From Sulfurifustis variabilis (GTDB lineage Bacteria; Pseudomonadota; Gammaproteobacteria; Acidiferrobacterales; Sulfurifustaceae), in assembly GCF_002355415.1 (NCBI RefSeq), contig NZ_AP014936.1:3881501-3945500 (forward strand): a DNA stretch of 64,000 nucleotides, in the 5' to 3' direction. Every line of letters begins with the position of its first letter. Position 1 is the stretch's first letter. Shown here piece by piece: positions 42,557 to 54,371 of this stretch. The notes below the pieces were generated by a model. It had not been told where the DNA came from. It was given only the letters and a program-made list of their open reading frames with translations, and searched no databases. A program made the position numbers and the translations under genes.

Positions 42557-43147
42557 CTACCCGTCGCTCAGGGTGACGCCCGCCCGGGCGATGGCCTCCT
42601 CGAACAGCGAGCGATACGGTTCTTCCGGCTGCAACGCCAGCTGCTGACGCCAGATTCGCAATGCGCCATCGGCGTCACCGAGGCGCGCGCGGATGACGCC
42701 TTGATGCAGGCGAGCGAGCGTGCCGAGCCGCGGGGAATGCGCCACGGCGACGTCATACAGGTCATACGCCGTTTCGAGCTCGTTAGGGTCGCTTCCCTGC
42801 CCGAGCAGCGATGCGCGCGCGAAGGCGATCTCGCCGTCCTGCGGATGCTGGAGCGCCAGGCGCTCGAGGAGCTGAAGGCCGTCGGCCCGCTGCCCGAGCT
42901 CGGCGTAGGTCCGCGCGAGCGCGATCTGCGAGCCGATGTCTGCGGACCCGGCCGGGGCATCGCCGGCCGGCGATGCATCGGCGCCGCTCTGGGCCTCTGG
43001 CCCGTTCCAGCCGGCGACGACGTCGTGCAGTTCGGGCAGATCGATACGCAGCCACGCGAGCGCGACGGCAAGCGCGGCGAGCACCGCCGCGGAGCCCAGC
43101 AACGCCGACAGCCAGCGCGGCCGGCGGTCGCGCAGGAAGAGATGCAT
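42557..43147 (-). CDS. Membrane-anchored TPR protein, cytochrome-locus copy 2
   Basis: A 196-residue protein with one N-terminal membrane segment (WLSALLGSAAVLAALAVALAW) and a TPR-like region (about residues 75-190) resembling the C-terminal part of CcmI/NrfG cytochrome c assembly factors. It is clearly paralogous to the protein at 50418-51062; both share ELGxRADGL, DGEIAFARAxLLG and LARLHQGxxRARLGD. I chose the ATG at 43147 because AAGGAGG lies 5 bases upstream. It lies 181 bp after the beta-barrel gene and may have its own promoter. Role in multihaem cytochrome maturation is inference. Confidence 0.8.
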   Translation of the reverse strand: MHLFLRDRRPRWLSALLGSAAVLAALAVALAWLRIDLPELHDVVAGWNGPEAQSGADASPAGDAPAGSADIGSQIALARTYAELGQRADGLQLLERLALQHPQDGEIAFARASLLGQGSDPNELETAYDLYDVAVAHSPRLGTLARLHQGVIRARLGDADGALRIWRQQLALQPEEPYRSLFEEAIARAGVTLSDG

Positions 43148-43328
43148 GGAACCTCCTTCGGGGTCGGAGACGAGACGATGCGCACAAGCACCGCCGCAGC
43201 ATCCATATATAAAGAAATGTGCGGGTCGCGCGTAGCCCGGTCGGCCCCGCATCGGACGACCGCGTCCTCGGCTCCGACGGGCGCGCCCGAAACGACCCCG
43301 CTCCCTTTTCGGTCCCCGGCGCGGCGGC
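43148..43328. other. Intergenic gap between the beta-barrel gene and the TPR gene
   Basis: The gap is mostly GC-rich, with one AT-rich island (TTTCTTTATATATGG on the minus strand, about 43203-43217) that may hold a -10 region for the TPR gene. No clear terminator is seen after the beta-barrel stop. Confidence 0.3.
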
Positions 43329-45455
43329 TTAAAAGTCCCAGCGATATCCCACGATGAAGAAGTCGCGTACCGAGTCCTCGTCCTGCAAGGGTCCGGTCGT
43401 CTCCTGCCGCTCCTGGCTGTACTCGAACTCCAGCGCGACGTTCTCGCGCCAGAAGTAATCGAGCTTCAGCGCCGGCGTCAACCGGTTCCGGGACACGTCG
43501 TCCGCGCGGTCCTCGGTGTAGTAGCGCACGGAGAGATCCGCGCGCCAGCGCCCGAACGGCACGCGATGGGTCAACGCAAACGAGTCTGCGTCGAACGCAT
43601 CGCTGTCGGTATGCGCCACGCCGAACACGGTGATCGCGCTCTTCGCGAAAAGACCGGTGCCGATGAGCTTGCCGGCATAGGTCCAGGCCGTACCGGTCCC
43701 CGGCGAAGCGGGCTGCGTGCCGCTGGCCGGCGTGCCGAGCTGCTTGGTGGCGGTCACGTCCAGGCCCGCCTGGAGCCGCTCCGTGAGGGGGTGCAGGAAG
43801 CCGCCGGACACGACTTTGGCGGTATCGGTGCGATCGCGCGCGTCGGCACGGATCTGCTCCTCCGTCCTGGTTTCCAGCAGCGTGTCGATCGACTCGGTGG
43901 TCTCGCCGATCAGCGCGTTGCTCGCCTGCAGCGGCGGCACCCGGCGGTAGTCGTACAGCAGGTTGTACGTCGTGCCGCCCTCGCTGGTCCAGTTCCCCTG
44001 GAGGAGCAGGATGTTGAGCTCCTTGTAGGAGGTCTCGTAGTCCACGAGCGCGAACACCGAGCTGCCGTTGCTGAAGTAGCGCACCTCGGTTCCGACCGCC
44101 TCCCGGTCGGTGAGGCCGTCGATCTCCTGTTTGAAGTAGTACAGGTTCGTCCCGAGGGCGCCGCTTTCGCTGCCAAGGTCCACGCTGAAGGCGTAGAACG
44201 AACGGTCGGAGTCGCGCGCAATCTTGTCCACGGGCTCGCCGGCGACCAGGTTAACCCCGATACGCGGGGTGAAATGGTAGCTGAAGAGCCCGCCGTCGAA
44301 GCGCGTCAGCACGCCGCTCGTGCTCGGCTGCCGGCCCAGCCGCACGGCGTAGCCGAGCTGACGGTCCTTGACCTCGCCATAGGCATTGACGACGCGCGAA
44401 TCGTCTTCGTGCTCCAGGCGGTCGTAGTTGTAGTGGGCGCTGAGCACTGCCCGGTTGTCATAGCGCTCGTCGCGCATGCGGGCGTTCACGTCGATCACGT
44501 TCACGAGCGTCGACTCGTCAGTGAAAGTGAGGGTCTCCTCTTCGCCGATCGTCGGACCGGTCTTCAGGGTCGTGTCGACCTTGCTGTTGCCCCGGTAGTA
44601 CTGCTGAGAGAACGTCCCGAACAATTCCGTGCGCCGTTTCTCTTCGCGCCGTTTCGGCTCGCGCAGCTTCACGGCAGCGCCGGGCTCGAGGTTCGCCAGC
44701 CGCTGCCGGACCCGATCGGCGCCCTCGCCTTCCGGGTAGAGCTTGAGGTAGAGCTTGTATTCGACCCGGGCGAGATCGGGCTGCTTGTTGCGCTCCCGCG
44801 CGAGACCGAGGAGCTCCAGCGCTTCCGGGGCCCGCGGGTGGCCGGGCACCGCCAGCACGCGGGTGAAGATCCGGATCGCGTCGACCGGACGGCCGGCGCC
44901 CAGCGCGGCGCGGCCCTCCGCCATCAGCTTCCCGACCTCGTCCGTCGACGGCGCGGGCTCGGCGGCGGGGCGCCGCGCGGGCGCCGTCGGCTGGACGGGC
45001 CGCTCCCCGGCGACGGCCTGCTCCTTTGCATCGGCAACGGCGATCCAAACGTCGGGGTAAAGCGACTTCAGCGCCCGGCGCGCCTTCTCGGCCTCCGCCC
45101 GGGTCGGGAAGAAGCCAAGGCGCAGGCGGTGCCAGATCTTGCCCTTTTGGCGGGTTTCCGTGCGGTACAGGCGGTAGCCGTCATACGGCGCGGGGAGGGG
45201 TTTCACCGGAAGCGCCGCACTCGGCGACGAGGCCAGGTTGAGCGCGTACGCGATATCCGCTCGCGGCTTCGCGGGCGTTGCCCGCGGAGCGGACGGCGGC
45301 ACGGGGGCTGCCTTGGCCGGCGCGCCGATCGCGCGCTCGTGCTCCGCCTCTGAGACCTCCGTCGCCCAGGCGAGCGGGTAGTGTGCCAACAGGCGCTCCT
45401 TGACCGATTCGGCCTGTTCGAACGAGTCGAAGAAGCCGAGGCGCAGGAAATACAC
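43329..45455 (-). CDS. Outer-membrane beta-barrel protein of the cytochrome locus (downstream frame)
   Basis: A 708-residue open frame. It begins inside a SPOR-like repeat (YFLRLGFFDSFEQAESVKERL), has a second SPOR-like repeat (HRLRLGFFPTRAEAEKARRAL, about residue 108), a TPR segment (about 170-265), and then about 430 residues of amphipathic strands ending in GYRWDF with a terminal Phe. The last part looks like an outer-membrane porin comparable to MtrB-type electron-conduit porins. The start is a GTG within the domain and has no good ribosome-binding site. The frame is open upstream to a 10-A run and continues the SPOR domain (RYAVTLQSAFEPLG), so this is very probably the C-terminal part of the gene starting at 46033. 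Confidence 0.82.
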   Translation of the reverse strand: MYFLRLGFFDSFEQAESVKERLLAHYPLAWATEVSEAEHERAIGAPAKAAPVPPSAPRATPAKPRADIAYALNLASSPSAALPVKPLPAPYDGYRLYRTETRQKGKIWHRLRLGFFPTRAEAEKARRALKSLYPDVWIAVADAKEQAVAGERPVQPTAPARRPAAEPAPSTDEVGKLMAEGRAALGAGRPVDAIRIFTRVLAVPGHPRAPEALELLGLARERNKQPDLARVEYKLYLKLYPEGEGADRVRQRLANLEPGAAVKLREPKRREEKRRTELFGTFSQQYYRGNSKVDTTLKTGPTIGEEETLTFTDESTLVNVIDVNARMRDERYDNRAVLSAHYNYDRLEHEDDSRVVNAYGEVKDRQLGYAVRLGRQPSTSGVLTRFDGGLFSYHFTPRIGVNLVAGEPVDKIARDSDRSFYAFSVDLGSESGALGTNLYYFKQEIDGLTDREAVGTEVRYFSNGSSVFALVDYETSYKELNILLLQGNWTSEGGTTYNLLYDYRRVPPLQASNALIGETTESIDTLLETRTEEQIRADARDRTDTAKVVSGGFLHPLTERLQAGLDVTATKQLGTPASGTQPASPGTGTAWTYAGKLIGTGLFAKSAITVFGVAHTDSDAFDADSFALTHRVPFGRWRADLSVRYYTEDRADDVSRNRLTPALKLDYFWRENVALEFEYSQERQETTGPLQDEDSVRDFFIVGYRWDF

Positions 45456-45532
45456 CTGCCGGCCGAAGAGGTCTTCGCTCGCGGTGTAGAGGCGGGCGCC
45501 CGGGACGTCCTTGACGCGCTCCCGGGCCGCCG

Positions 45533-46033
45533 TCAGGTCGCCGAGAGGCTCAAATGCCGATTGGAGCGTGACGGCGTAGCGTTTTTTTTTTCGGCGGCCT
45601 GCCTGGCCGCCCCCGGTTTCCGGAAGATGACGTCGATGCTTCGGTTGTCACGCCCCTGCCTCACGTCGAAATCCATGGGCTGGCCGAAGTTGAACACGAG
45701 CTGCGGGCCCTGCGGTCCGTTCGGCTCGAACGTCACCTCGGTCGCCGGCACCAGCTCCGGCTGGGCCTTGAGCGACTTGTGATCCACCTCGCGCCGTACG
45801 CTGTCGGCCACGTCGAGGACGCGCAGGTATACCACGAGGTTCTTGCCGGACGCCCTGATGTGCTTCTGGTACCGGACCGGTACCGCGAAGTTCACGTGCA
45901 GTACCGCCGCCTCATCGGTCGTCTCCACCTCGAGACTGTCGAGTATCTGGGCTTCCGCGCCGGCCACGAGGCCAAGCCAGAGCACGAACGCCACGCACAA
46001 CTTCTCGAAGTCCGGTCGCATGAGCTTCAGCAT
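45533..46033 (-). CDS. AMIN-like N-terminal part of the beta-barrel protein (upstream frame)
   Basis: A 166-residue open frame with a signal peptide (FVLWLGLVAGAEA) and a beta-rich AMIN-like domain (about residues 30-140; LHVNFAVPVRYQKHIRASG, GQPMDFDVRQGRDNRSIDVI). AMIN domains target periplasmic proteins to the cell envelope. After residue 150 the frame runs into a 10-A tract (AEKKN) and then reads 16 residues without domain character before a stop. A -1 shift or one extra A in the tract joins it in frame to the SPOR/TPR/barrel protein. It follows the 24-haem cytochrome gene by 35 bp. Confidence 0.75.
   Translation of the reverse strand: MLKLMRPDFEKLCVAFVLWLGLVAGAEAQILDSLEVETTDEAAVLHVNFAVPVRYQKHIRASGKNLVVYLRVLDVADSVRREVDHKSLKAQPELVPATEVTFEPNGPQGPQLVFNFGQPMDFDVRQGRDNRSIDVIFRKPGAARQAAEKKNATPSRSNRHLSLSAT
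45582..45591 (-). other. Ten-adenine homopolymer at the frame junction of the beta-barrel gene
   Basis: On the coding strand GCCG is followed by ten A residues and CGC. With 10 A the upstream frame ends soon after in a stop; with 8 or 11 A the two frames form one protein. This is a classic slippery site for RNA polymerase or the ribosome, a possible phase-variation tract, or a sequencing or assembly indel. Confidence 0.85.
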
Positions 46034-46068
46034 TGGTTACTCGACAGTCTCTTTTGGTTGATCCGCCG

Positions 46069-47901
46069 TCAGAAGCCGCCGTCGCTCGCCCGATGCTCGC
46101 CCGAGCGGGACTTCTGGATGGTTGTGAAGGTGTTGTCCGTGTAGATGTGGCAGCTTCCCGCACAGTTGCGCAGCTCGCTCACCGTGTAACGGATCGTGGT
46201 CGGCGTCTCCGTTTTCTTGTGCGGATCGGGCTTGAAACGCGACGCGTGGCACGCGGCGCAATCCGGCTGGTATGCCGCGAAGGGCCAGGTCACGGTCTCG
46301 CTGTTGGCCGTGTGGCAGTCCGTGCAGGTCACGCTCGAGTTGTGCCGGCCGGGAAAGAACGGTGAGGTATGGCTGTAGTTGAGGACAGGAAGCCAGGCGG
46401 TCGTGCCGTGACACGCGTCGCAGGAACGCGTCGTGATGAAGTGCCCCGACGGCTTGCCGGTCGCGTTGGCGCCGTTGTGACAGGTGGCGCACGTGCCCGG
46501 GGTGACGGCGCTGTGACTGAAGTTCGCCGGCACCCAGGCGTTCACCGTGTGGCAGGTGTCGCACGAGGCCGTCGTCACGACGTGATTCGCGGGCTTGTCG
46601 GTCGCGTGGCAGGTGTTGCAGGTGCCCGGGGTGACGGTCGCGTGATCGAACGTCGCGGGAAGCCATGCCGTGGTCCGGTGACACCCATCGCACGACGCGG
46701 TGGTCACCACGTGGTTTGCCGGCTTGTCGGTCGCGTGGCAGGTGTTGCAGGTGCCCGGAGCGACGGTCGCGTGATCGAACGTCGCCGGCAGCCAGGCGTT
46801 CGTGCCATGACACGAGTCGCACGAGGCCGTCGTCACGACGTGATTGGCGGGCTTGTGGGTCGCGTGGCAGGTGTTGCAGGTGCCCGGAGTGACGGTCGTG
46901 TGGCTGAAGTTGGCCGGCAGCCAGGCGTTCGTGCCGTGACACGAGTCGCACGAGGCCGTCGTCACGACGTGATTGGCGGGCTTGTGGGTCGCGTGGCAGG
47001 TGTTGCAGGTGCCCGGAGTGACGGTCGTGTGGCTGAAGTTGGCCGGCAGCCAGGCGTTCGTGCCGTGACACGAGTCGCACGAGGCCGTCGTCACGACGTG
47101 ATTGGCGGACTTGTCCTTCGAGTGGCAGGTGTTGCACGTGCCGGGCGTCACCGTCGCGTGGTCGAACGTCGCCACCGCCCACGTACTCGTCCCGTGACAG
47201 CTGTCGCAGGAGGCGCTGGTCACGATGTGGTTCGCCGGCTTGTCGGTCGCGTGGCAGGTGCTGCACGTGCCGGGCGTCACCGCGGCGTGATCGAATCGGG
47301 CAGGTCGCCACGCGCGCGTGTTGTGACAGGTGTCGCAGGACTGGCTGGTCTGGATGTGGTTGGTTCTCGGGCGATCGGGCAGATGGCAGCTGTTGCAGGC
47401 ACCCGGCGCTACGCCACTGTGATCGTACGTCGCTGGCGTCCAGTAACGCGTCGTATGGCAGCGGTCGCACGAGTCGGTCGTCGTGACGTGGCGCGCGTGC
47501 TTGCCCTTCGCGGTCACGCCGTTGTGGCAGCTTGCGCAACCGCCGGCCGCGACCGCGCTGTGGTCGAAGCGCGCGCCGGCGAAGCGGCGGGTATCGTGGC
47601 ACTGGTCGCACGGCAGACTGGTCGGGATATGGCTGGCGCTCTTCGTCGTGGTCGCGCGTCCGCTTCCCGGTACATGGCAAGCCGCGCACGCGTGCGGCGT
47701 CCCCTTGAACACTCCCCGGCTGTGACAGGTGTCGCAACGCGCCTTGGTGTGGGCGCCGGTGAGCGGAAAGCCGGTCTGGAGGTGGTCGAAGCGGGCGTTG
47801 CGCGTGCTCGGCTGCGCGGCGTCGGCGGACAGCGCGAACAGCGCGAGCGCGGCGGCGAGTACCACGTAGGTGATTCGGCCAAGGCTGCGCGTGGTCTTCA
47901 T
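46069..47901 (-). CDS. Large multihaem c-type cytochrome, 23 CxxCH motifs plus one CxxxCH
   Basis: A 610-residue exported cytochrome with a Sec signal peptide (VVLAAALALFALSADAA) and no lipobox. By eye I count 23 CxxCH motifs and one CAGSCH (CX3CH) near the C-terminus, so up to 24 haems. The core is a 43-residue two-haem module (CDSCHGTNAWLPANFSH, then CNTCHATHKPANHVV) repeated about nine times, two copies being identical in DNA. I chose the ATG at 47901 with GGAGGGAG upstream. It lies between the 21-haem cytochrome and the porin gene, so it probably forms the outer wire of an electron conduit. Cell-surface placement is inference. Confidence 0.93.
   Translation of the reverse strand: MKTTRSLGRITYVVLAAALALFALSADAAQPSTRNARFDHLQTGFPLTGAHTKARCDTCHSRGVFKGTPHACAACHVPGSGRATTTKSASHIPTSLPCDQCHDTRRFAGARFDHSAVAAGGCASCHNGVTAKGKHARHVTTTDSCDRCHTTRYWTPATYDHSGVAPGACNSCHLPDRPRTNHIQTSQSCDTCHNTRAWRPARFDHAAVTPGTCSTCHATDKPANHIVTSASCDSCHGTSTWAVATFDHATVTPGTCNTCHSKDKSANHVVTTASCDSCHGTNAWLPANFSHTTVTPGTCNTCHATHKPANHVVTTASCDSCHGTNAWLPANFSHTTVTPGTCNTCHATHKPANHVVTTASCDSCHGTNAWLPATFDHATVAPGTCNTCHATDKPANHVVTTASCDGCHRTTAWLPATFDHATVTPGTCNTCHATDKPANHVVTTASCDTCHTVNAWVPANFSHSAVTPGTCATCHNGANATGKPSGHFITTRSCDACHGTTAWLPVLNYSHTSPFFPGRHNSSVTCTDCHTANSETVTWPFAAYQPDCAACHASRFKPDPHKKTETPTTIRYTVSELRNCAGSCHIYTDNTFTTIQKSRSGEHRASDGGF
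46811..47068. repeat. Perfect 129-bp tandem duplication in the cytochrome gene
   Basis: Bases 46811-46939 and 46940-47068 appear identical over all 129 positions, followed by about 40 more matching bases of a third unit. The unit encodes 43 residues and two haem sites. The flanking modules are clearly diverged, so the duplication is recent or kept identical by recombination. Confidence 0.9.
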
Positions 47902-47938
47902 GTCTCTCCCTCCGCCTTTCTTGTTACGCATCGGCTTG

Positions 47939-49531
47939 TTAGTGGCGGCGCTTCATCGCGCCCGATCTGATCGTCCCGAAATCCGACGTCACGTGGCAGC
48001 GCTCGCAGTACCGCCCGTACGCGCCGGCGTGCACGTCGTCGCCGTCGTGGCACGCGACGCACGCGCTCGGCGCCTCGACACGGCCTTTCATCGGGCGTTG
48101 GTGGCAGCTCTTGCACGCCAGGCGCTCGTGCCCGCCGTCGAGACGGAAACGCGTGCGCGCATTGTGGTCGAAGCGCCACTGCTTCCAGTCGCGCGCGTTG
48201 TGGCACTCCTCGCAGGCGGGGCCCAGCGTTCGCTTGTGGGCGTCTTCCTTCTCGTGGCACGCGACGCATTGCGTCGAGGCGTCCTTGAACGTCGCGGCGC
48301 GGTGGCACTCCTTGCACTCGAGCTTCGCGTGCCGGCCGAGCAACGGGAACCGCGTGAGGTCATGGTCGAAGCGGGTCGTTTTCCAGGAGCGCTCGTCGTG
48401 ACACTGCTCGCAGCGTTGGCCCTGCTGTCCCCTGTGCTCGTCGTCCTTCTTGTGGCACGCATAACAGGTGGTCGCGAGCTTCTGCTGGTAGAGCGGCCCG
48501 GTATGGCACGCGGTGCATTTTGCCTGGCGGTGCTTGCCGAGCAGCGGATAGTCGGTCGCCCGGTCGTGGTCGAAGGTGATCGCCTTCCACTCCCGCTCCA
48601 CGTGGCAAGTCTCGCATTTCGGACCGAACCGGCCCTTGTGGCCTTTCCTGTCGTCGTCCTTGCGGTGGCAGCTCACGCACGTCTGCCCGAGCTTTTGCCT
48701 GTAGAGGTCGCCCGTGTGGCAGGCCGTACACTTCGCGTCCCGATGGCGCCCGAGCAGCCGGTACTTCGTATCGCGGTCGTGGTCGAAGCGCAGCTGGCGC
48801 CATCCGTCCGCCACGTGGCATGTCTCGCACTTGCGCCCGAACCGGCCCTTATGCCCCTTCCTGTCGTCGTCCTTGCGGTGGCAGCTCACGCAGTCCTTCG
48901 CCGTGTTTTTGTAGCGTTCGCGGACGTGGCAGGCCTTGCACTCGACGTCGTAGTGCTTCCCCTCGAGCGGCCACCCGGTCTTGCTGTGGTCGAATCGGAC
49001 CTCCGCCCAGCGGTTCTCGGTGTGGCAACTGCGGCAGTCCTTGCCCAGCCCGCCCTTGTGGGTGTCGTCCTTTCGATGGCACGCGTAGCAGTCAGATGGC
49101 GCGGCCCGGTGCTTCTGCCCGGCCCGATGACAGTCCCGGCAGGTCACTTCCGGCTTTCCGTGCGCGCCCTTGAGCGCAAAATCGGTCATCGTGTGGTCGA
49201 AACGGCGCTCGTCGAGCTTCACGATGTCCGCCTCCCGACCCTTGTGTTCGGTGTGGCACTTGCTGCAGGTGCTGTCCTCGAGCCGCCCGTGGAAGCCCCG
49301 GTTCCGGGCGACGTCGTCGGCCACCTCCCGGTGATCGTGGCATCCAAGGCAGAGGTCACGCTGGGCGTCGCGCCGGAACGGAACGTGGCACTGCTTGCAC
49401 TCCGTTTCGAGGCGTTCATGACCCTTGATCACTTTTCCGGGCATCACCAGCGAGTCGAGCGGTCCCAGGTCGGCGAAGGCGCCCGTCGCGAGCAGTGCTG
49501 CCAGCCCGGCGATGAACCAGACGATGCGCAT
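47939..49531 (-). CDS. Large multihaem c-type cytochrome with 21 CxxCH motifs
   Basis: A 530-residue exported cytochrome with signal peptide (MRIVWFIAGLAALLATGAFA). By eye I count 21 CxxCH motifs. The repeating unit alternates sites with the pattern FDH...LLGKHxxxKCxACH and CxSCHRKDDDRKGHKGRFG, and it contains many extra His that can serve as distal haem ligands. It is strongly basic (Lys/Arg/His-rich), unlike the Thr/Ala/Asn-rich partner at 46069-47901. It follows the cytochrome b-like gene and may be the periplasmic half of the conduit. Confidence 0.93.
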   Translation of the reverse strand: MRIVWFIAGLAALLATGAFADLGPLDSLVMPGKVIKGHERLETECKQCHVPFRRDAQRDLCLGCHDHREVADDVARNRGFHGRLEDSTCSKCHTEHKGREADIVKLDERRFDHTMTDFALKGAHGKPEVTCRDCHRAGQKHRAAPSDCYACHRKDDTHKGGLGKDCRSCHTENRWAEVRFDHSKTGWPLEGKHYDVECKACHVRERYKNTAKDCVSCHRKDDDRKGHKGRFGRKCETCHVADGWRQLRFDHDRDTKYRLLGRHRDAKCTACHTGDLYRQKLGQTCVSCHRKDDDRKGHKGRFGPKCETCHVEREWKAITFDHDRATDYPLLGKHRQAKCTACHTGPLYQQKLATTCYACHKKDDEHRGQQGQRCEQCHDERSWKTTRFDHDLTRFPLLGRHAKLECKECHRAATFKDASTQCVACHEKEDAHKRTLGPACEECHNARDWKQWRFDHNARTRFRLDGGHERLACKSCHQRPMKGRVEAPSACVACHDGDDVHAGAYGRYCERCHVTSDFGTIRSGAMKRRH

Positions 49532-49545
49532 GTCCGCTTCGCCCC

Positions 49546-50415
49546 TCAGTACATGTGCACGGCGACGACATGGACCACTCCGCTAAACAGCAGGATGACC
49601 ATCAAGGGAACGTGCAGCACGTGCCAGAGCGAGAACAGCCGTTCGTAGGCGCCGAACTGGGCGACGTCCGCGATGGCGCCGAGGTACGCGGCGATCAGGC
49701 CCTTGCCATGGCGGTAGGCGCGCCTCAGTGTGCGGCGATCCCACCCGCGCCGTGCTCCTTGCAGCCGGAGGGCCGAACGAAGCTCGCGCTTCGCATGCCG
49801 GTAATGCAGGCGCACGAGCACCGCCACGACCATGAGCCGCCATACGGCGGGGGCCCGTTCGTAAACGTGCAGCAGGCGCTCCTCGAGCCCGACGAGGCGC
49901 CGCTCGAGCGGGGGATGAAACCGCAGCTTGGAGCGGGCGCTCTCGCCGGACAGGCCGAGACGCGTCTTCACTTCGGCCAGCGTCGCGCGTCGTCCGTACA
50001 GCCCGTGGTGGATCTTCGCGTAAAGGAAGCGCCCGACCAGACCGCTCAGGGCCACGATGGCCATCGCGGCGAAGGCGACGGTGCCGTTGATCGAACCGAA
50101 GTGCAGCCGCGAGTGAAGGAGGATCAGCACCGGACCGGCGATGCCCAGGACCATGTGCCCCCGGAACCAGTGCTTGAGCGGAAGCAGCCGCTGCAGCCAT
50201 CGCAGCCGTTTCGCGATCGGGTAGAGGAGCAGGACGAGCATGGCGATTCCGCCCGCGAGCCCGAGCGTGTAGCCCATGTCGTCGCCGGCGCGGTAGGGGA
50301 TGCGCAACGCGAGCGCCGCAGCGACGGCAACCACCGCGAGAACGACGGGCAGGGCGCGGCGACCGTCCGACCGTCGCCGGCCCTGCGCCATCATGGTCTC
50401 GCTGCTCGCGCCCAT
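49546..50415 (-). CDS. Inner-membrane cytochrome b-like protein
   Basis: A 289-residue membrane protein with about five to six hydrophobic segments (about 22-37, 47-65, 86-102, 110-126, 192-205, 265-288). His residues lie in or at membrane segments in pairs: HWFRGHMVLG, LLHSRLHFG, LWHVLHVPLM and VVHVVAVHMY. This arrangement is like di-haem cytochrome b/ferric reductase folds. It would exchange electrons between the quinone pool, or the divergent flavoprotein, and the periplasmic multihaem cytochrome. It starts 2 bp after the TPR gene and is 14 bp before the 21-haem cytochrome. I could not assign an exact family. Confidence 0.75.
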   Translation of the reverse strand: MGASSETMMAQGRRRSDGRRALPVVLAVVAVAAALALRIPYRAGDDMGYTLGLAGGIAMLVLLLYPIAKRLRWLQRLLPLKHWFRGHMVLGIAGPVLILLHSRLHFGSINGTVAFAAMAIVALSGLVGRFLYAKIHHGLYGRRATLAEVKTRLGLSGESARSKLRFHPPLERRLVGLEERLLHVYERAPAVWRLMVVAVLVRLHYRHAKRELRSALRLQGARRGWDRRTLRRAYRHGKGLIAAYLGAIADVAQFGAYERLFSLWHVLHVPLMVILLFSGVVHVVAVHMY

Positions 50416-50417
50416 GC

Positions 50418-51062
50418 TCAGCCGCCCGTCCCCGCTCGCGCCTGAGCGATCGCGCTCTCAAACAGCGCGCGATGGGCGTCTTCCGGGAAGCGCGCGAGGT
50501 GGGCCTCCCAGATGCGAATCGCGCCCGCCCGGTCGCCGAGACGCGCGCGCACCTCGCCCTGGTGCAGGCGCGCGAGCGGAATCAGTCGTGGGGTGAGTGT
50601 TGCCGCGCGGGCATAGAGATCGAAGGACTGTCGCAGCTCGGCGGCGTTTTCGCCGTGACCGAGGAGGTCAGCCCGCGCGAAAGCGATCTCGCCGTCGTTC
50701 GGACGGGCCTTGGCGAGCCGTTCCAGCACCTTCAGGCCGTCTGCGCGGCGGCCGAGCTCGTTGTAGGTCTGCGCGAGCAGGATCTGGGCGCCGACGTCGT
50801 CCGGATGCGCGGCGGACTTGGCCTCGAGACCGGGAAGGAGCTCTGCGAGGCTCGGTGCGAGAGCGGCGGGCGCCTTGTCGGCCGCGTGCCCCTTGGCAGG
50901 GCCGTCCGGCCGGGACAGGCCGCCCCAGACGTCGGAGAAGACCGGGCGGGAAGAGTTCTCTGAACCGAACCAGGCGGCAGCCGCGCCGACGCCCAGCATG
51001 ATGAGCGCGACAAAAAAAACCGCCAGCCAGCGCGATCGCGGGCCGCGCAGAAGACTTCCCAT
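50418..51062 (-). CDS. Membrane-anchored TPR protein, cytochrome-locus copy 1
   Basis: A 214-residue protein with one N-terminal membrane segment (WLAVFFVALIMLGVGAAAAWF) and a periplasmic TPR-like domain (about residues 85-205; LLAQTYNELGRRADGLKVLE, NDGEIAFARADLLG). It is similar to cytochrome c maturation factor CcmI/NrfG and paralogous to the protein at 42557-43147. It is the first gene of the minus-strand locus, with GGGAG before the ATG and 2 bp to the cytochrome b-like gene. A chaperone role for apocytochromes is inferred from fold and context. Confidence 0.82.
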   Translation of the reverse strand: MGSLLRGPRSRWLAVFFVALIMLGVGAAAAWFGSENSSRPVFSDVWGGLSRPDGPAKGHAADKAPAALAPSLAELLPGLEAKSAAHPDDVGAQILLAQTYNELGRRADGLKVLERLAKARPNDGEIAFARADLLGHGENAAELRQSFDLYARAATLTPRLIPLARLHQGEVRARLGDRAGAIRIWEAHLARFPEDAHRALFESAIAQARAGTGG

Positions 51063-51242
51063 TCGTACTCCCTGAATGCGTCCTTCATCCGGACGCTTTT
51101 ATTAGTTGCTGCGCTCTCGGCGCTTTATGCGTATATAAGTACAAGTCGGCGCAATGCCTAGAGACGTTTCAGAAACAACGGACTGCCGGGTATGCCACTC
51201 CGACGGGCGTCTTAAGGAATCCTTAAGAATCGGACCATTCCA
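51063..51242. promoter_or_regulatory. Divergent promoter region of the electron-transfer locus
   Basis: The 180-bp gap separates the first minus-strand gene of the cytochrome locus from the plus-strand flavoprotein. It has an AT-rich core (51100-51140, containing ATGCGTATATAAGTAC) that should hold promoters, though no perfect -35/-10 pair is visible in either direction. A perfect palindrome lies near the flavoprotein start. Confidence 0.5.
51210..51228. promoter_or_regulatory. Perfect 19-bp palindrome upstream of the flavoprotein gene
   Basis: TCTTAAGGAATCCTTAAGA reads the same on both strands around one central base (9+1+9). It ends 14 bp before the ATG at 51243. The size and symmetry fit a dimeric repressor operator. 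I cannot name the regulator. Confidence 0.6.
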
Positions 51243-52544
51243 ATGAGACTTTTCGAGTCGCCGTACCTGATCTATCTGGTACCCCTCCTGCTCGCGGTCG
51301 CCGTCTACCTGGTGCGCCATCGGCGGCGGGAGCACCTGAACGTCGCGCGACTGACGGAGGCCAGGGAGGCCGGCCTGACCGAGCCTGCGTCCCTTCACCC
51401 CCTCATCGACCCCCTGCGCTGCCTCGGCTCGAACGCGTGCGTGCGCGCGTGTCCGGAGGGCGACGTCCTCGGGATCATCCGCGGCCGCGCCGAGATCATC
51501 GACGCCACCCACTGCATCGGCCACGGCGCCTGCCGGGCGGCCTGTCCGCACGGGGCGATCACGCTCGTCTTCGGGACGGCGAAGCGCGGGGTCGACATTC
51601 CGCTCCTGTCGCCGACGTTCGAGACCAACGTTCCCGGCATCTACATCGCCGGCGAGCTGGGTGGCATGGGTTTGATCCGCAATGCCGTGGAACAGGGGCG
51701 TCAGGCGATCGACGCGATCCGCCGGCAGAAGGGGGCGAACGGCCAGCTCGACGTCGTCATCGTCGGTGCCGGCCCTGCCGGCTTCGCGGCGTCGCTGGCC
51801 GCCCACGCGCACAAGCTGCGCTACGCCACGGTCGAGCAGGAGTCCCTCGGCGGCTGCGTGTTCAGGTACCCGCGCGGCAAGATCGTCATGACCCAGCCGG
51901 CGACGCTGCCGCTCGTCGGCAAGGTGAAGATGCGCGAGACCACCAAGGAGGCGCTCCTCGGCTTCTGGCAGGACGTCGAGAAGCGTACCGGGGTACGGAT
52001 CCGCTACAACGAGCGCATGGACGACATCGTGAAGACAGAGAAGGGTTTCCTGGTTAAAACGACCAAGGGAAGCTACGAGGCGCGCGCCGTGCTCCTCGCC
52101 ATCGGGCGCCGCGGGACGCCACGCAAGCTCGAGGTGCCGGGCGAGGAGCTGCCGAAGGTCGTCTACAGCCTGATCGATCCCGAGCAGTACCGGGGCCAGA
52201 AGGTCCTCGTGGTGGGCGGCGGCGACGCGGCCATCGAGGCGGCGCTGGCCGTCGCCGAGCAGCCGGGCACCGCGGTCGCGCTGTCCTACCGCGGCGAGGC
52301 GTTCGACCGTGCCAAGCCCAGGAACCGGGAGCGGCTCGAAAGCATGTCGAAGGCCGGACGGATGAGGCTGTTGATGAAGTCCAAGGTGCGCGCCATTTCG
52401 GCCGACCGGGTGCAGCTCGACCACGACGGCAAGCCGGTCGAGCTCGGTAACCACGCGGTGATCGTCTGTGCCGGCGGCGTGCTTCCCACGCCGTTCCTGA
52501 AAAAGATCGGGATTACCGTGGAGACGAAGTACGGAACGGCGTAG
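51243..52544 (+). CDS. Membrane-anchored Fe-S flavoprotein oxidoreductase
   Basis: A 433-residue protein with an N-terminal membrane anchor (LIYLVPLLLAVAVYL), a ferredoxin-like domain (about residues 60-105) and a thioredoxin-reductase-like FAD/NAD(P) domain (VVIVGAGPAGFAASLAA; second nucleotide motif VLVVGGGDAAIEAAL). The two cluster motifs CLGSNACVRACP and CIGHGACRAACP each keep three cysteines, with Ser or His in place of the usual second Cys; I recall this pattern from relatives. It could pass electrons between the cytochrome b-like protein and NAD(P)H. It is divergent from the cytochrome operon and convergent with glmS, their stop codons abutting as TAG-CTA. Confidence 0.85.
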   Translation: MRLFESPYLIYLVPLLLAVAVYLVRHRRREHLNVARLTEAREAGLTEPASLHPLIDPLRCLGSNACVRACPEGDVLGIIRGRAEIIDATHCIGHGACRAACPHGAITLVFGTAKRGVDIPLLSPTFETNVPGIYIAGELGGMGLIRNAVEQGRQAIDAIRRQKGANGQLDVVIVGAGPAGFAASLAAHAHKLRYATVEQESLGGCVFRYPRGKIVMTQPATLPLVGKVKMRETTKEALLGFWQDVEKRTGVRIRYNERMDDIVKTEKGFLVKTTKGSYEARAVLLAIGRRGTPRKLEVPGEELPKVVYSLIDPEQYRGQKVLVVGGGDAAIEAALAVAEQPGTAVALSYRGEAFDRAKPRNRERLESMSKAGRMRLLMKSKVRAISADRVQLDHDGKPVELGNHAVIVCAGGVLPTPFLKKIGITVETKYGTA

Positions 52545-54371
52545 CTATTCGACCGTCACCGACTTCGCGAGGTTGCGCGGTTTGTCCACGTCGGTGCCCC
52601 GCATGACCGCGGTGTGGTAGGCGAGCAGCTGAACGGGAATCGCGTGCACGACCGGCGACAGCACGCCGACATGGCGCGGGGTGCGGATCACGTGTACCCC
52701 GGCGCTCTCGCTGAAATGGCTGTCCAGATCGGCGAAGACGTAGAGCTCGCCGCCGCGCGCGCGCACTTCCTGCATGTTCGACTTCACTTTCTCGAGCAGC
52801 GAGTCGTTCGGCGCAATCACCACCACCGGCATGTTCGCGTCGACGAGCGCCAGCGGCCCGTGCTTGAGCTCGCCGGCAGGATAGGCCTCGGCGTGTATGT
52901 AGGAGATCTCCTTGAGCTTCAGCGCTCCCTCGAGCGCGATCGGATAGTGCACGCCGCGCCCCAGGAACAGCGCGTGCTCCTTCGGCGCGAAGCGCTCGGC
53001 CCAGAGCTTGATCTGCGGCTCGAGATTGAGGGCGTGCTGCACGCTGCCGGGCAGATGCCGGAGCGCGTCGAGGTGCGCAGCCTCCGCCGCGTCGCTCAGG
53101 CGCCCCTTGGCCTTGGCCAGGGCGAGGGTCAGCACGAACAAGGCGGCGAGCTGGGTCGTGAACGCCTTGGTCGAGGCGACGCCGATTTCCGCGCCCGCGC
53201 GCGTGTAAAACACCAGCCGTGACGCCCGCGGAATGGCGCTCTCGCGCACGTTGCAGATCGCCAGCTGATGGGGGTGACCCAGCTCCTTGGCCCGCTTGAG
53301 CGCCTCCATCGTGTCGAGCGTCTCTCCCGACTGGGAGATCGTGACGATCAGCTGCCGCGGATTGGGTACCGTGTCGCGGTAGCGGTATTCGCTCGCGATA
53401 TCGACGGTGCAGGGGATCTTCGCGATCGACTCCAGCCAGTAGCGCGCGACGCTGCCCGCGTAGTAGCTCGTGCCGCAGGCGATGATCTGCACGCCTTCGA
53501 CGTCCCGGAAAACGGACGCCGCCTCGCGGCCGAAAAGCGCGGCGTCCACTCCGAGGGTGACGACCGCCTCGATAGTGTCGGACAATGCCTGGGGCTGCTC
53601 GTAAATCTCCTTCTGCATGAAGTGGCCGTAGGGCCCGAGCTCCAGCGAAGCGAGCGAAAGGTCGGACTCGTGCACCTCGCGTTCGACCGGGGCGCCGTCG
53701 CGGTCGTACACGCGTACCGCCGAGCGGGTCAGCTCGGCGACATCGCCCTCCTCGAGGTACATCACCCGGCGCGTCGCGGAGATGACGGCGGAAACGTCTG
53801 ACGCCACGAAGTTCTCGTTCTCGCCGAGGCCGATCAGCAGAGGGCAGCCGACGCGCGCGCAGGTCATGAGATCGGGAGACTTCAGGGAGACGACGGCGAT
53901 CGCGTACGCGCCGACCAGGTCGCGCACGGCCTGCCGGGTGGCCTGGAGCAGGTTGCCCGACTGCGAGAAGTAATAGTGGACGAGGTGCGCTATGACCTCG
54001 GTGTCGGTCTGCGACTCGAAGCCGTAGCCCAGCTTCTCGAGACGTTCGCGCTGCGCGTCGTGGTTCTCGATGATGCCGTTGTGCACGACCGCGATCTCGT
54101 CGTGCGAGACGTGCGGATGCGCGTTCGGCTCGGTGACGCCGCCGTGGGTGGCCCAGCGCGTGTGGCCGATGCCGAGGAGCCCGTTCAGCCCCTCCGTCCT
54201 GGCCGCGCCTTCCATCTCCGCCACGCGCCCGACCCGGCGGACACGCCGGATCCCGCCGTTCAGCACGGCTACGCCCGCGGAGTCGTAACCGCGATATTCG
54301 AGGCGCTTCAGACCCTCGATGAGGATCGGGACCACATTGCGGTTTGCCACCGCGCCGACGATGCCGCACAT
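52545..54371 (-). CDS. glmS: Glutamine--fructose-6-phosphate aminotransferase (isomerizing)
   Basis: A 608-residue enzyme that makes glucosamine-6-phosphate from fructose-6-phosphate and glutamine, the entry to UDP-GlcNAc, peptidoglycan and lipopolysaccharide. The N-terminal Ntn-amidotransferase begins with the catalytic Cys2 ([13 protein letters not shown]), with [11 protein letters not shown]. Two SIS sugar-binding domains follow ([20 protein letters not shown]). The C-terminal end KSVTVE is typical. It lies downstream of glmU on the same strand, 94 bp apart. Confidence 0.96.

Follow-up and report, generated by a model that had tools for sequence, protein, structure and literature searches.

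Here we describe an electron-transfer locus of Sulfurifustis variabilis skN76, an autotrophic sulfur oxidiser isolated from lake sediment (PMC5024460). The window analysed is a stretch of 64,000 nucleotides (NZ_AP014936.1, positions 3,881,501 to 3,945,500) of a genome that forms a single contig of 3,958,814 bases, and the locus occupies positions 42557 to 52544 of this window. The minus strand carries, in this order, a TPR protein, an inner-membrane protein, a c-type cytochrome with 21 haem sites, a second multihaem cytochrome, a segment of 166 residues, an open frame with SPOR, TPR and barrel parts, and a second TPR protein. A flavoprotein with iron-sulfur (Fe-S) motifs is encoded on the plus strand, divergently from the cytochrome operon. 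Judged by its sequence, the locus is a porin-cytochrome cluster of the PCC3 type reported by He et al. in 2017 (PMC5566968). The PCC3 type itself is already known; new here are a near-constant flavoprotein partner, the counting of trihaem modules in the periplasmic cytochrome and a break in the reading frame of the porin.

Results

The inner-membrane protein (49546-50415, minus strand, 289 residues) contains two WX3HX13H motifs, W83-x3-H87-x13-H101 and W264-x3-H268-x13-H282, together with an SGxxG motif (S124, G125 and G128), and is predicted to hold two b-haems. The combination of SGXXG with two WX3HX13H motifs is described by He et al. (PMC5566968) for the PCC3 inner-membrane protein, which has about 300 residues. 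Across an alignment of 56 sequences, H87, H101, H268 and H282 are identical throughout, and W83, W264 and the SGxxG motif are kept at 95% or more. Two stretches, L001 and L077, are one contig, which enters the alignments twice and the cytochrome and frame tallies once. Matches in G026, G039 and G013 are not represented among the longer stretches fetched and were dropped before counting. A preliminary description of the stretch, made from the letters without database searches, had called this protein a cytochrome b-like inner-membrane protein; the protein is confirmed, with its four invariant histidines (56/56). Sequence searches of the PDB with the inner-membrane protein and with the porin returned no matches.

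The two cytochromes together hold 45 haem sites, as the preliminary description had estimated, and all their cysteines fall in such motifs. The first (47939-49531, minus strand, 530 residues) has 21 CxxCH; the second (46069-47931, minus strand, 620 residues, rich in Thr and Ala) has 23 CxxCH and one CX3CH. Apart from these two, the window contains no stop-to-stop frame of at least 60 residues in which CxxCH occurs more than twice, and the richness of the two cytochrome genes is therefore not due to chance. With 25.2 residues per haem in the first and 27.0 in the second (counting its 23 CxxCH), the pair agrees with the PCC3 pattern, in which a periplasmic cytochrome with about 21 haems is joined by one on the cell surface, at 22-39 residues per haem; both locations are predicted ones.

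In the 21-haem protein the spacing of haem sites repeats as about 17, 18 and 33 residues, that is, as a trihaem module of about 68 residues resembling cytochrome c7, and seven such modules make up what is predicted to be a periplasmic wire. Identical median spacings recur across 53 low-Thr open reading frames (ORFs) whose CxxCH number 18, 21 or 24 (one contig twice). Among 48 complete ORFs that come first after an inner-membrane gene, the window being left out of the cytochrome tallies, 36 have 21 haems, 7 have 24, 4 have 18 and one has 10; the 10-haem case (L122) follows a weak inner-membrane match and is probably not a PCC3. The counts of 18, 21 and 24 therefore mean that the length of the wire varies by whole trihaem modules, and on these haem spacings the periplasmic PCC3 cytochrome is a chain of six, seven or eight. 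Chains of trihaem modules are familiar from cytochrome c7 polymers such as Geobacter GSU1996; unlike these, the PCC3 wire has six to eight modules and belongs to a porin-cytochrome cluster. The Cytochrom_NNT family (PF03264) has no match in the S. variabilis genome. For PCC3 cytochromes, haem counts of 21, 24 and 27 are given by Hoover et al. in 2023 (PMC10734462).

The second cytochrome, predicted to lie on the cell surface, follows a different rhythm. Its haem spacing chiefly alternates between 24 and 19 residues, giving a two-haem unit of about 43, and its haem number ranges from 9 to 67 across 36 complete ORFs. Outside this tally, one PCC3-type cytochrome ORF of 4,086 codons (G267:C17:42976-55233, in L139) has 133 CxxCH; its neighbours are a cytochrome with 24 haems and an inner-membrane gene of PCC3, and the start of this cluster is also found in L104. 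By comparison, 85 haems was the largest number known to He et al. in 2017 (PMC5566968). In another region (L141, G092 contig C126) three cytochrome ORFs have 23, 33 and 73 CxxCH, and a further one, which runs off the end of the stretch, has at least 37.

The outer-membrane component is an open frame (43329-45590, minus strand) with two SPOR-like folds, a TPR bundle and a barrel of about 22 strands. One of the SPOR-like folds passes Pfam (PF05036, 42.9 bits against a gathering score of 21). An AlphaFold2 model, built from three sequences only and with a mean predicted local distance difference test score (pLDDT) of 69, low in the N-terminal part, places low-confidence SPOR-like folds first, then a TPR bundle of helices (residues 216-301) and, starting at residue 320, the 22 strands of the barrel. 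The PDB fold matches listed for the barrel are outer-membrane barrels, the best being 4frt_B (Z 19.4, root-mean-square deviation (rmsd) 5.0 over 279 aligned residues). Chain B of the Mtr complex 6r2q stands at rank 49 (Z 15.2, rmsd 7.4, 335 aligned). The cluster thus encodes an outer-membrane barrel in the form of a homologous frame with a porin-like model, the frame being broken upstream of SPOR. A location of the barrel outside the outer membrane, one of the findings that would have counted against the preliminary description, gains nothing from these models. The other such finding, consistent loss of the porin from homologous loci, is likewise not what was seen: beyond the window itself, 63 stretches were fetched, and the barrel ORF occurs in 40 of them; many of the stretches stop at a contig end, and the other 23 are not sorted into those that miss it and those cut short.

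The preliminary description had also seen a single protein with AMIN, SPOR, TPR and barrel parts, whose peptidoglycan-binding modules would fix the porin to the cell wall. SPOR, TPR and barrel stand: 21 of 41 porins pass E<=0.001 for SPOR and 19 of 41 for TPR_16, and the TPR region holds many of the nearly invariant alignment columns. The proposed fixing to the wall is borne out by half. The single ORF does not stand, because the parts lie in different frames here. Nor does AMIN (PF11741): the 166-residue segment of the window has no Pfam match to it, and among 30 such segments there is one weak match (E 0.045), so that we reject this identity for the segment. An MtrB-family porin was considered and rejected, since PF11854 (MtrB/PioB) has no match at E<=0.001 in the whole genome, in a search of modest power (in the control one of 14 named genomes matched, below the cut-off). 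A literature search found no joint mention of PCC3, porin and SPOR domain.

The flavoprotein (51243-52544, plus strand, 433 residues), which the preliminary description had correctly recognised as divergent, begins with a hydrophobic N-terminus followed by basic residues, read by eye as a membrane anchor, after which come a pair of Fe-S motifs and an FAD/NAD(P)H domain like that of YpdA/TrxB. The first motif is C60-x2-S63-x2-C66-x3-C70P and the second C91-x2-H94-x2-C97-x3-C101P. Over 44 aligned flavoproteins, the second position of motif 1 is Cys in 33 and Ser in the window, and that of motif 2 is His, replacing Cys, in all 44. Ferredoxins with unusual cluster motifs have reportedly been described by Child et al. 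in 2018. The best PDB sequence matches are 7a76 and 7a7b, and the YpdA profile TIGR04018 gives 166.2 bits, under its curated cut-off of 339.9. The FAD/NAD(P)H domain is thus common to YpdA or thioredoxin-reductase-like proteins and the PCC3 flavoprotein, to which the latter adds the membrane anchor and the pair of Fe-S motifs, with the invariant His of the second.

The evidence that ties this flavoprotein to PCC3 is its distribution. In a class sample of 369 genomes, the inner-membrane protein (E<=1e-10) and the flavoprotein (E<=1e-60) each occur in 42, and 40 genomes have both (hypergeometric P 1.1e-48), at thresholds that differ between the proteins and were picked after viewing the locus table, and with only the best few candidates scored per genome. 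Five genomes (G089, G092, G156, G355 and G371) have two copies of each protein. The 45 pairs comprise 35 divergent neighbours within 3 kb, 5 pairs on different contigs and 5 placed otherwise; because some pairs lie on different contigs, the co-occurrence goes beyond neighbourhood, although in draft genomes such contigs are not necessarily far apart. A phylum sample gave the same picture, with the flavoprotein in 4 of 299 genomes and these four holding the only strong inner-membrane matches, next to three weak ones (E 1.5e-12 to 7.8e-11) without flavoprotein; the window genome and G141 belong to both samples, and G649 and G552 are new. Mean identity is 58% for the flavoprotein and 35% for the inner-membrane protein, and their distances correlate (r 0.77 over 42 loci, with none of 2000 permutations as high).

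By these sequence comparisons the Fe-S flavoprotein is a near-constant partner of PCC3, and the connection with the NAD(P)H pool put forward in the preliminary description receives strong support from the 40 shared genomes. Such a partner is not named in the text passages of the PCC3 literature that were searched, figures and supplements lying outside their scope. Table 1 of Hoover et al. (PMC10734462) reports for 41 of 87 genomes a cluster 360, named '4Fe-4S ferredoxin iron-sulfur binding domain protein'; its identity with the flavoprotein is doubtful, for the table lists haem-motif proteins and none of the 44 flavoproteins contains CxxCH.

The same distribution would equally well suit a maturation factor. 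The flavoprotein could be a helper in the making of the cytochromes, standing outside the electron path and supplying, for example, thiol- or haem-reducing power for some 90 haem-binding cysteines. Its closest named family, YpdA, is a bacillithiol disulfide reductase, and the TPR protein that opens the cytochrome operon (50418-51062, minus strand, 214 residues) weakly resembles the TPR domain of CcmH/CycH (E 2e-4, under the curated cut-off). We consider this role improbable, as a conserved redox CxxC is absent from the flavoprotein (apart from the cysteines of the Fe-S motifs, only column C409 is commonly Cys, in 25 of 44) and its pair of Fe-S motifs points to one-electron transfer.

The porin of the window is broken in frame. 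The 166-residue segment, which has a signal-like start (45533-46033, minus strand), stops in its own frame in the assembly; a coding-strand run of ten A (45582-45591) marks both its overlap with the SPOR-TPR-barrel frame and the site of the frame change. The first start codon of the barrel frame is a GTG at 45455, within the SPOR segment and without a signal peptide. The 3.96-Mb genome has two A10/T10 runs in total, the second at G000:C1:950049-950058. In close relatives (for example L067, L068, L073 and L123) the upstream segment is a separate gene with its own signal-like start, and elsewhere it is fused in frame, as judged by eye. Breaks in the N-terminal part of the porin were seen by eye in 4 of 41 porins (the window, L125, L069 and L119); one of the latter three lies at a T9 run, and L069 and L119 break without a homopolymer. 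A different method, tblastn, with the window left out, gave frame changes in 3 of 142 checks of the inner-membrane protein, flavoprotein and barrel parts (0 of 40 for the barrel part). A conserved programmed frameshift at the A run, as a trait of the family, was considered and rejected, since no other fetched locus has a run of eight or more A at the junction and since the upstream segment is a gene of its own in close relatives and joined in frame in others.

In our view a sequencing error is the likeliest cause of the frame change. Homopolymer indels are the usual residual error of PacBio RS II assemblies. The S. variabilis assembly was built solely from such reads (PMC5024460). The alternative that the run is a true frameshift, that no exported barrel is made and that the locus is a broken remnant in S. 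variabilis has in its favour the frame change at A10, a barrel frame devoid of a start bearing a signal peptide, and the related genome G030, whose porin loses its frame at a T9 run within the SPOR segment. It appears unlikely, given an assembly of this kind, a barrel frame without internal stop over 753 codons, and the reading through of the remaining genes of the locus; a comparable A-run break in the porin of Leptothrix ochracea was taken as a sequencing error by He et al. (PMC5566968).

A further possibility is that the A10 run acts as a switch, slippage by DNA polymerase, RNA polymerase or the ribosome toggling the porin. The run consists of three AAA lysine codons in succession, where AAA encodes 23 of the 156 lysines counted over nine genes in and next to the locus, the run included; one of only two A10 runs in the genome coincides exactly with the break; breaks also occur in G030 and in the published L. 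ochracea porin; and N-terminal porin breaks (4/41) exceed frame changes elsewhere (3/142), as counted by different methods. This reading is highly improbable, because the other fetched loci have no A run of at least eight at the junction (L109 does have an A8, but within SPOR and in an open frame), a homopolymer is missing from two of the four porin breaks, and error in draft genomes accounts for these counts.

The remaining features are the TPR proteins and the surroundings. The second TPR protein (42557-43252, minus strand, 231 residues) is a paralogue of the first, at 44-53% identity, as the preliminary description had proposed. The first has an N-terminal membrane anchor (by eye) and a counterpart near the inner-membrane gene in 7 of 62 other distinct stretches, and because it is present in only these it is not a constant part of PCC3. 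The locus is flanked by uvrD on one side and glmS (named by eye) on the other. A scan of 50950-51400 gave no promoter-like and two terminator-like sites. The order glmS, flavoprotein, TPR protein, inner-membrane protein (window 49546-54371) recurs in L077/L001, which belongs to a different family within this taxonomic order, an arrangement suggestive of vertical descent.

Discussion

The locus shares with published PCC3 clusters (PMC5566968, PMC10734462) the inner-membrane motifs, the 21-haem cytochrome, the second cytochrome, the barrel, the gene set and a density of 25-27 residues per haem, and both the gene order and homologous clusters recur elsewhere. It differs from them in adding the Fe-S flavoprotein, for which the passages searched give no mention with PCC3, the SPOR and TPR segments of the porin, the two TPR proteins and the frame break. 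The trans-envelope wire of the preliminary description is already the published reading of PCC3 (He et al. 2017, PMC5566968); it is thereby supported, though not new. Two other systems invite comparison. MtrCAB and MtoAB likewise combine a barrel with periplasmic and surface cytochromes, and 6r2q chain B is among the fold matches of the barrel; the present locus, in contrast, is without an MtrB/PioB match, has 21 and 24 haems instead of 10, about 22 strands in the model, and SPOR and TPR segments. NADPH oxidases and ferric reductases (FRD) resemble it in their two HX13H pairs, a likeness pointed out by He et al., and in an FAD/NAD(P)H protein. Unlike these, the window inner-membrane protein matches no Pfam family at E<=0.01 (and three homologues do not match FRD at E<=5), the flavoprotein is separate and has Fe-S motifs, and the electrons would continue to a 45-haem wire.

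We think it probable that the locus encodes a PCC3 trans-envelope electron conduit together with a cytoplasmic flavoprotein partner. The genes, haem motifs, conserved histidines, flavoprotein domains and co-occurrence are read directly from sequence and the barrel fold from a model; from these we infer the cell location of the parts, the contact of the flavoprotein with the inner-membrane protein, its electron exchange with the b-haems, and the direction and substrate of the flow. Electrons would pass between NAD(P)(H) and the FAD and Fe-S clusters of the membrane-anchored flavoprotein, from there to the two b-haems of the inner-membrane protein, on to the 21-haem periplasmic wire of seven trihaem modules, then through the barrel, which its SPOR and TPR segments may keep close to the wall, and finally by way of the 24-haem surface cytochrome to an external donor or acceptor.

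If the coupling to the b-haems is direct, the membrane potential would assist electrons on their way out, and NAD(P)H is itself strongly reducing; outward flow, as by a reductase or electron sink, would then be favoured, as it is in NADPH oxidases and ferric reductases. For the opposite route, from outside to NAD(P)+, a strongly reducing donor or an extra energy input would be required. We put forward, tentatively, that PCC3 may be an NAD(P)H-driven outward reductase to an external acceptor, a split NADPH-oxidase-like unit with the flavoprotein as near-obligate subunit and a haem wire of countable modules crossing periplasm and outer membrane, and not primarily an iron oxidase.

The published model runs the other way. 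He et al. (PMC5566968) propose that electrons move between a donor outside the cell and the quinone pool. On this uptake reading, Fe(II), reduced sulfur or a surface would supply electrons that travel through the wire and b-haems to the quinone pool, leaving the flavoprotein as a side branch that makes NAD(P)H from quinol- or ferredoxin-type electrons. This uptake fits a host that is a lithoautotroph in need of electrons for CO2 fixation (PMC5024460), and the frequency of PCC3 in Gallionellaceae iron oxidisers, with 26 complete and 11 partial clusters (PMC10734462). It speaks less well to the report that in Sideroxydans ES-1 both PCC3 clusters are lower on Fe(II) than on thiosulfate (PMC8788666), and the PCC3 literature passages searched assign no place to a near-constant flavoprotein of the NAD(P)H type. 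Uptake is thus possible but somewhat doubtful.

Several observations weigh against the conduit with its flavoprotein partner, or against outward flow through it. Five transmembrane helices are expected of a PCC3 inner-membrane protein, but the AlphaFold2 model obtained here has low confidence (pLDDT 63) and its last helix is merged. In a fold search with this model the match to cytochrome b561 (rank 21-22, Z 8.6, rmsd 3.5-4.0 across some 140 residues) ties with unrelated helical proteins and is uninformative. At the thresholds used, the flavoprotein occurs without the inner-membrane protein in G153 and G233, and the reverse holds in G094 and G246. The match in G153 covers only part of the query, the G233 genome is 72% complete, the G094 case is the weak match with the 10-haem neighbour, and in G246 a piece of flavoprotein adjoins the inner-membrane gene. 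At L081 (G090, a single contig) the flavoprotein gene next to PCC3 has an internal stop and is split into two separated pieces. The distance correlation, computed without an unlinked control gene, partly reflects common descent. Because the porin frame is broken, the conduit may be off in the sequenced strain. As YpdA is a thiol-disulfide reductase, the flavoprotein may have a different role. The case for outward flow is a bioenergetic argument of our own, and in Sideroxydans sp. CL21 one PCC3 inner-membrane gene is up in iron-oxidising cells (PMC12442390), which also favours uptake. The PCC3 literature passages searched contained no functional or biochemical test of any PCC3 part.

Conclusions

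PCC3 occurs in many Gallionellaceae iron oxidisers (PMC10734462) and in sulfur oxidisers such as S. variabilis. The number of trihaem modules in its periplasmic cytochrome, six, seven or eight, would be a testable ruler for the periplasmic width that the wire spans. A near-constant partner, sometimes found on another contig, offers a handle on the source or destination of PCC3 electrons, and the flavoprotein hints at what the wire plugs into inside the cell.

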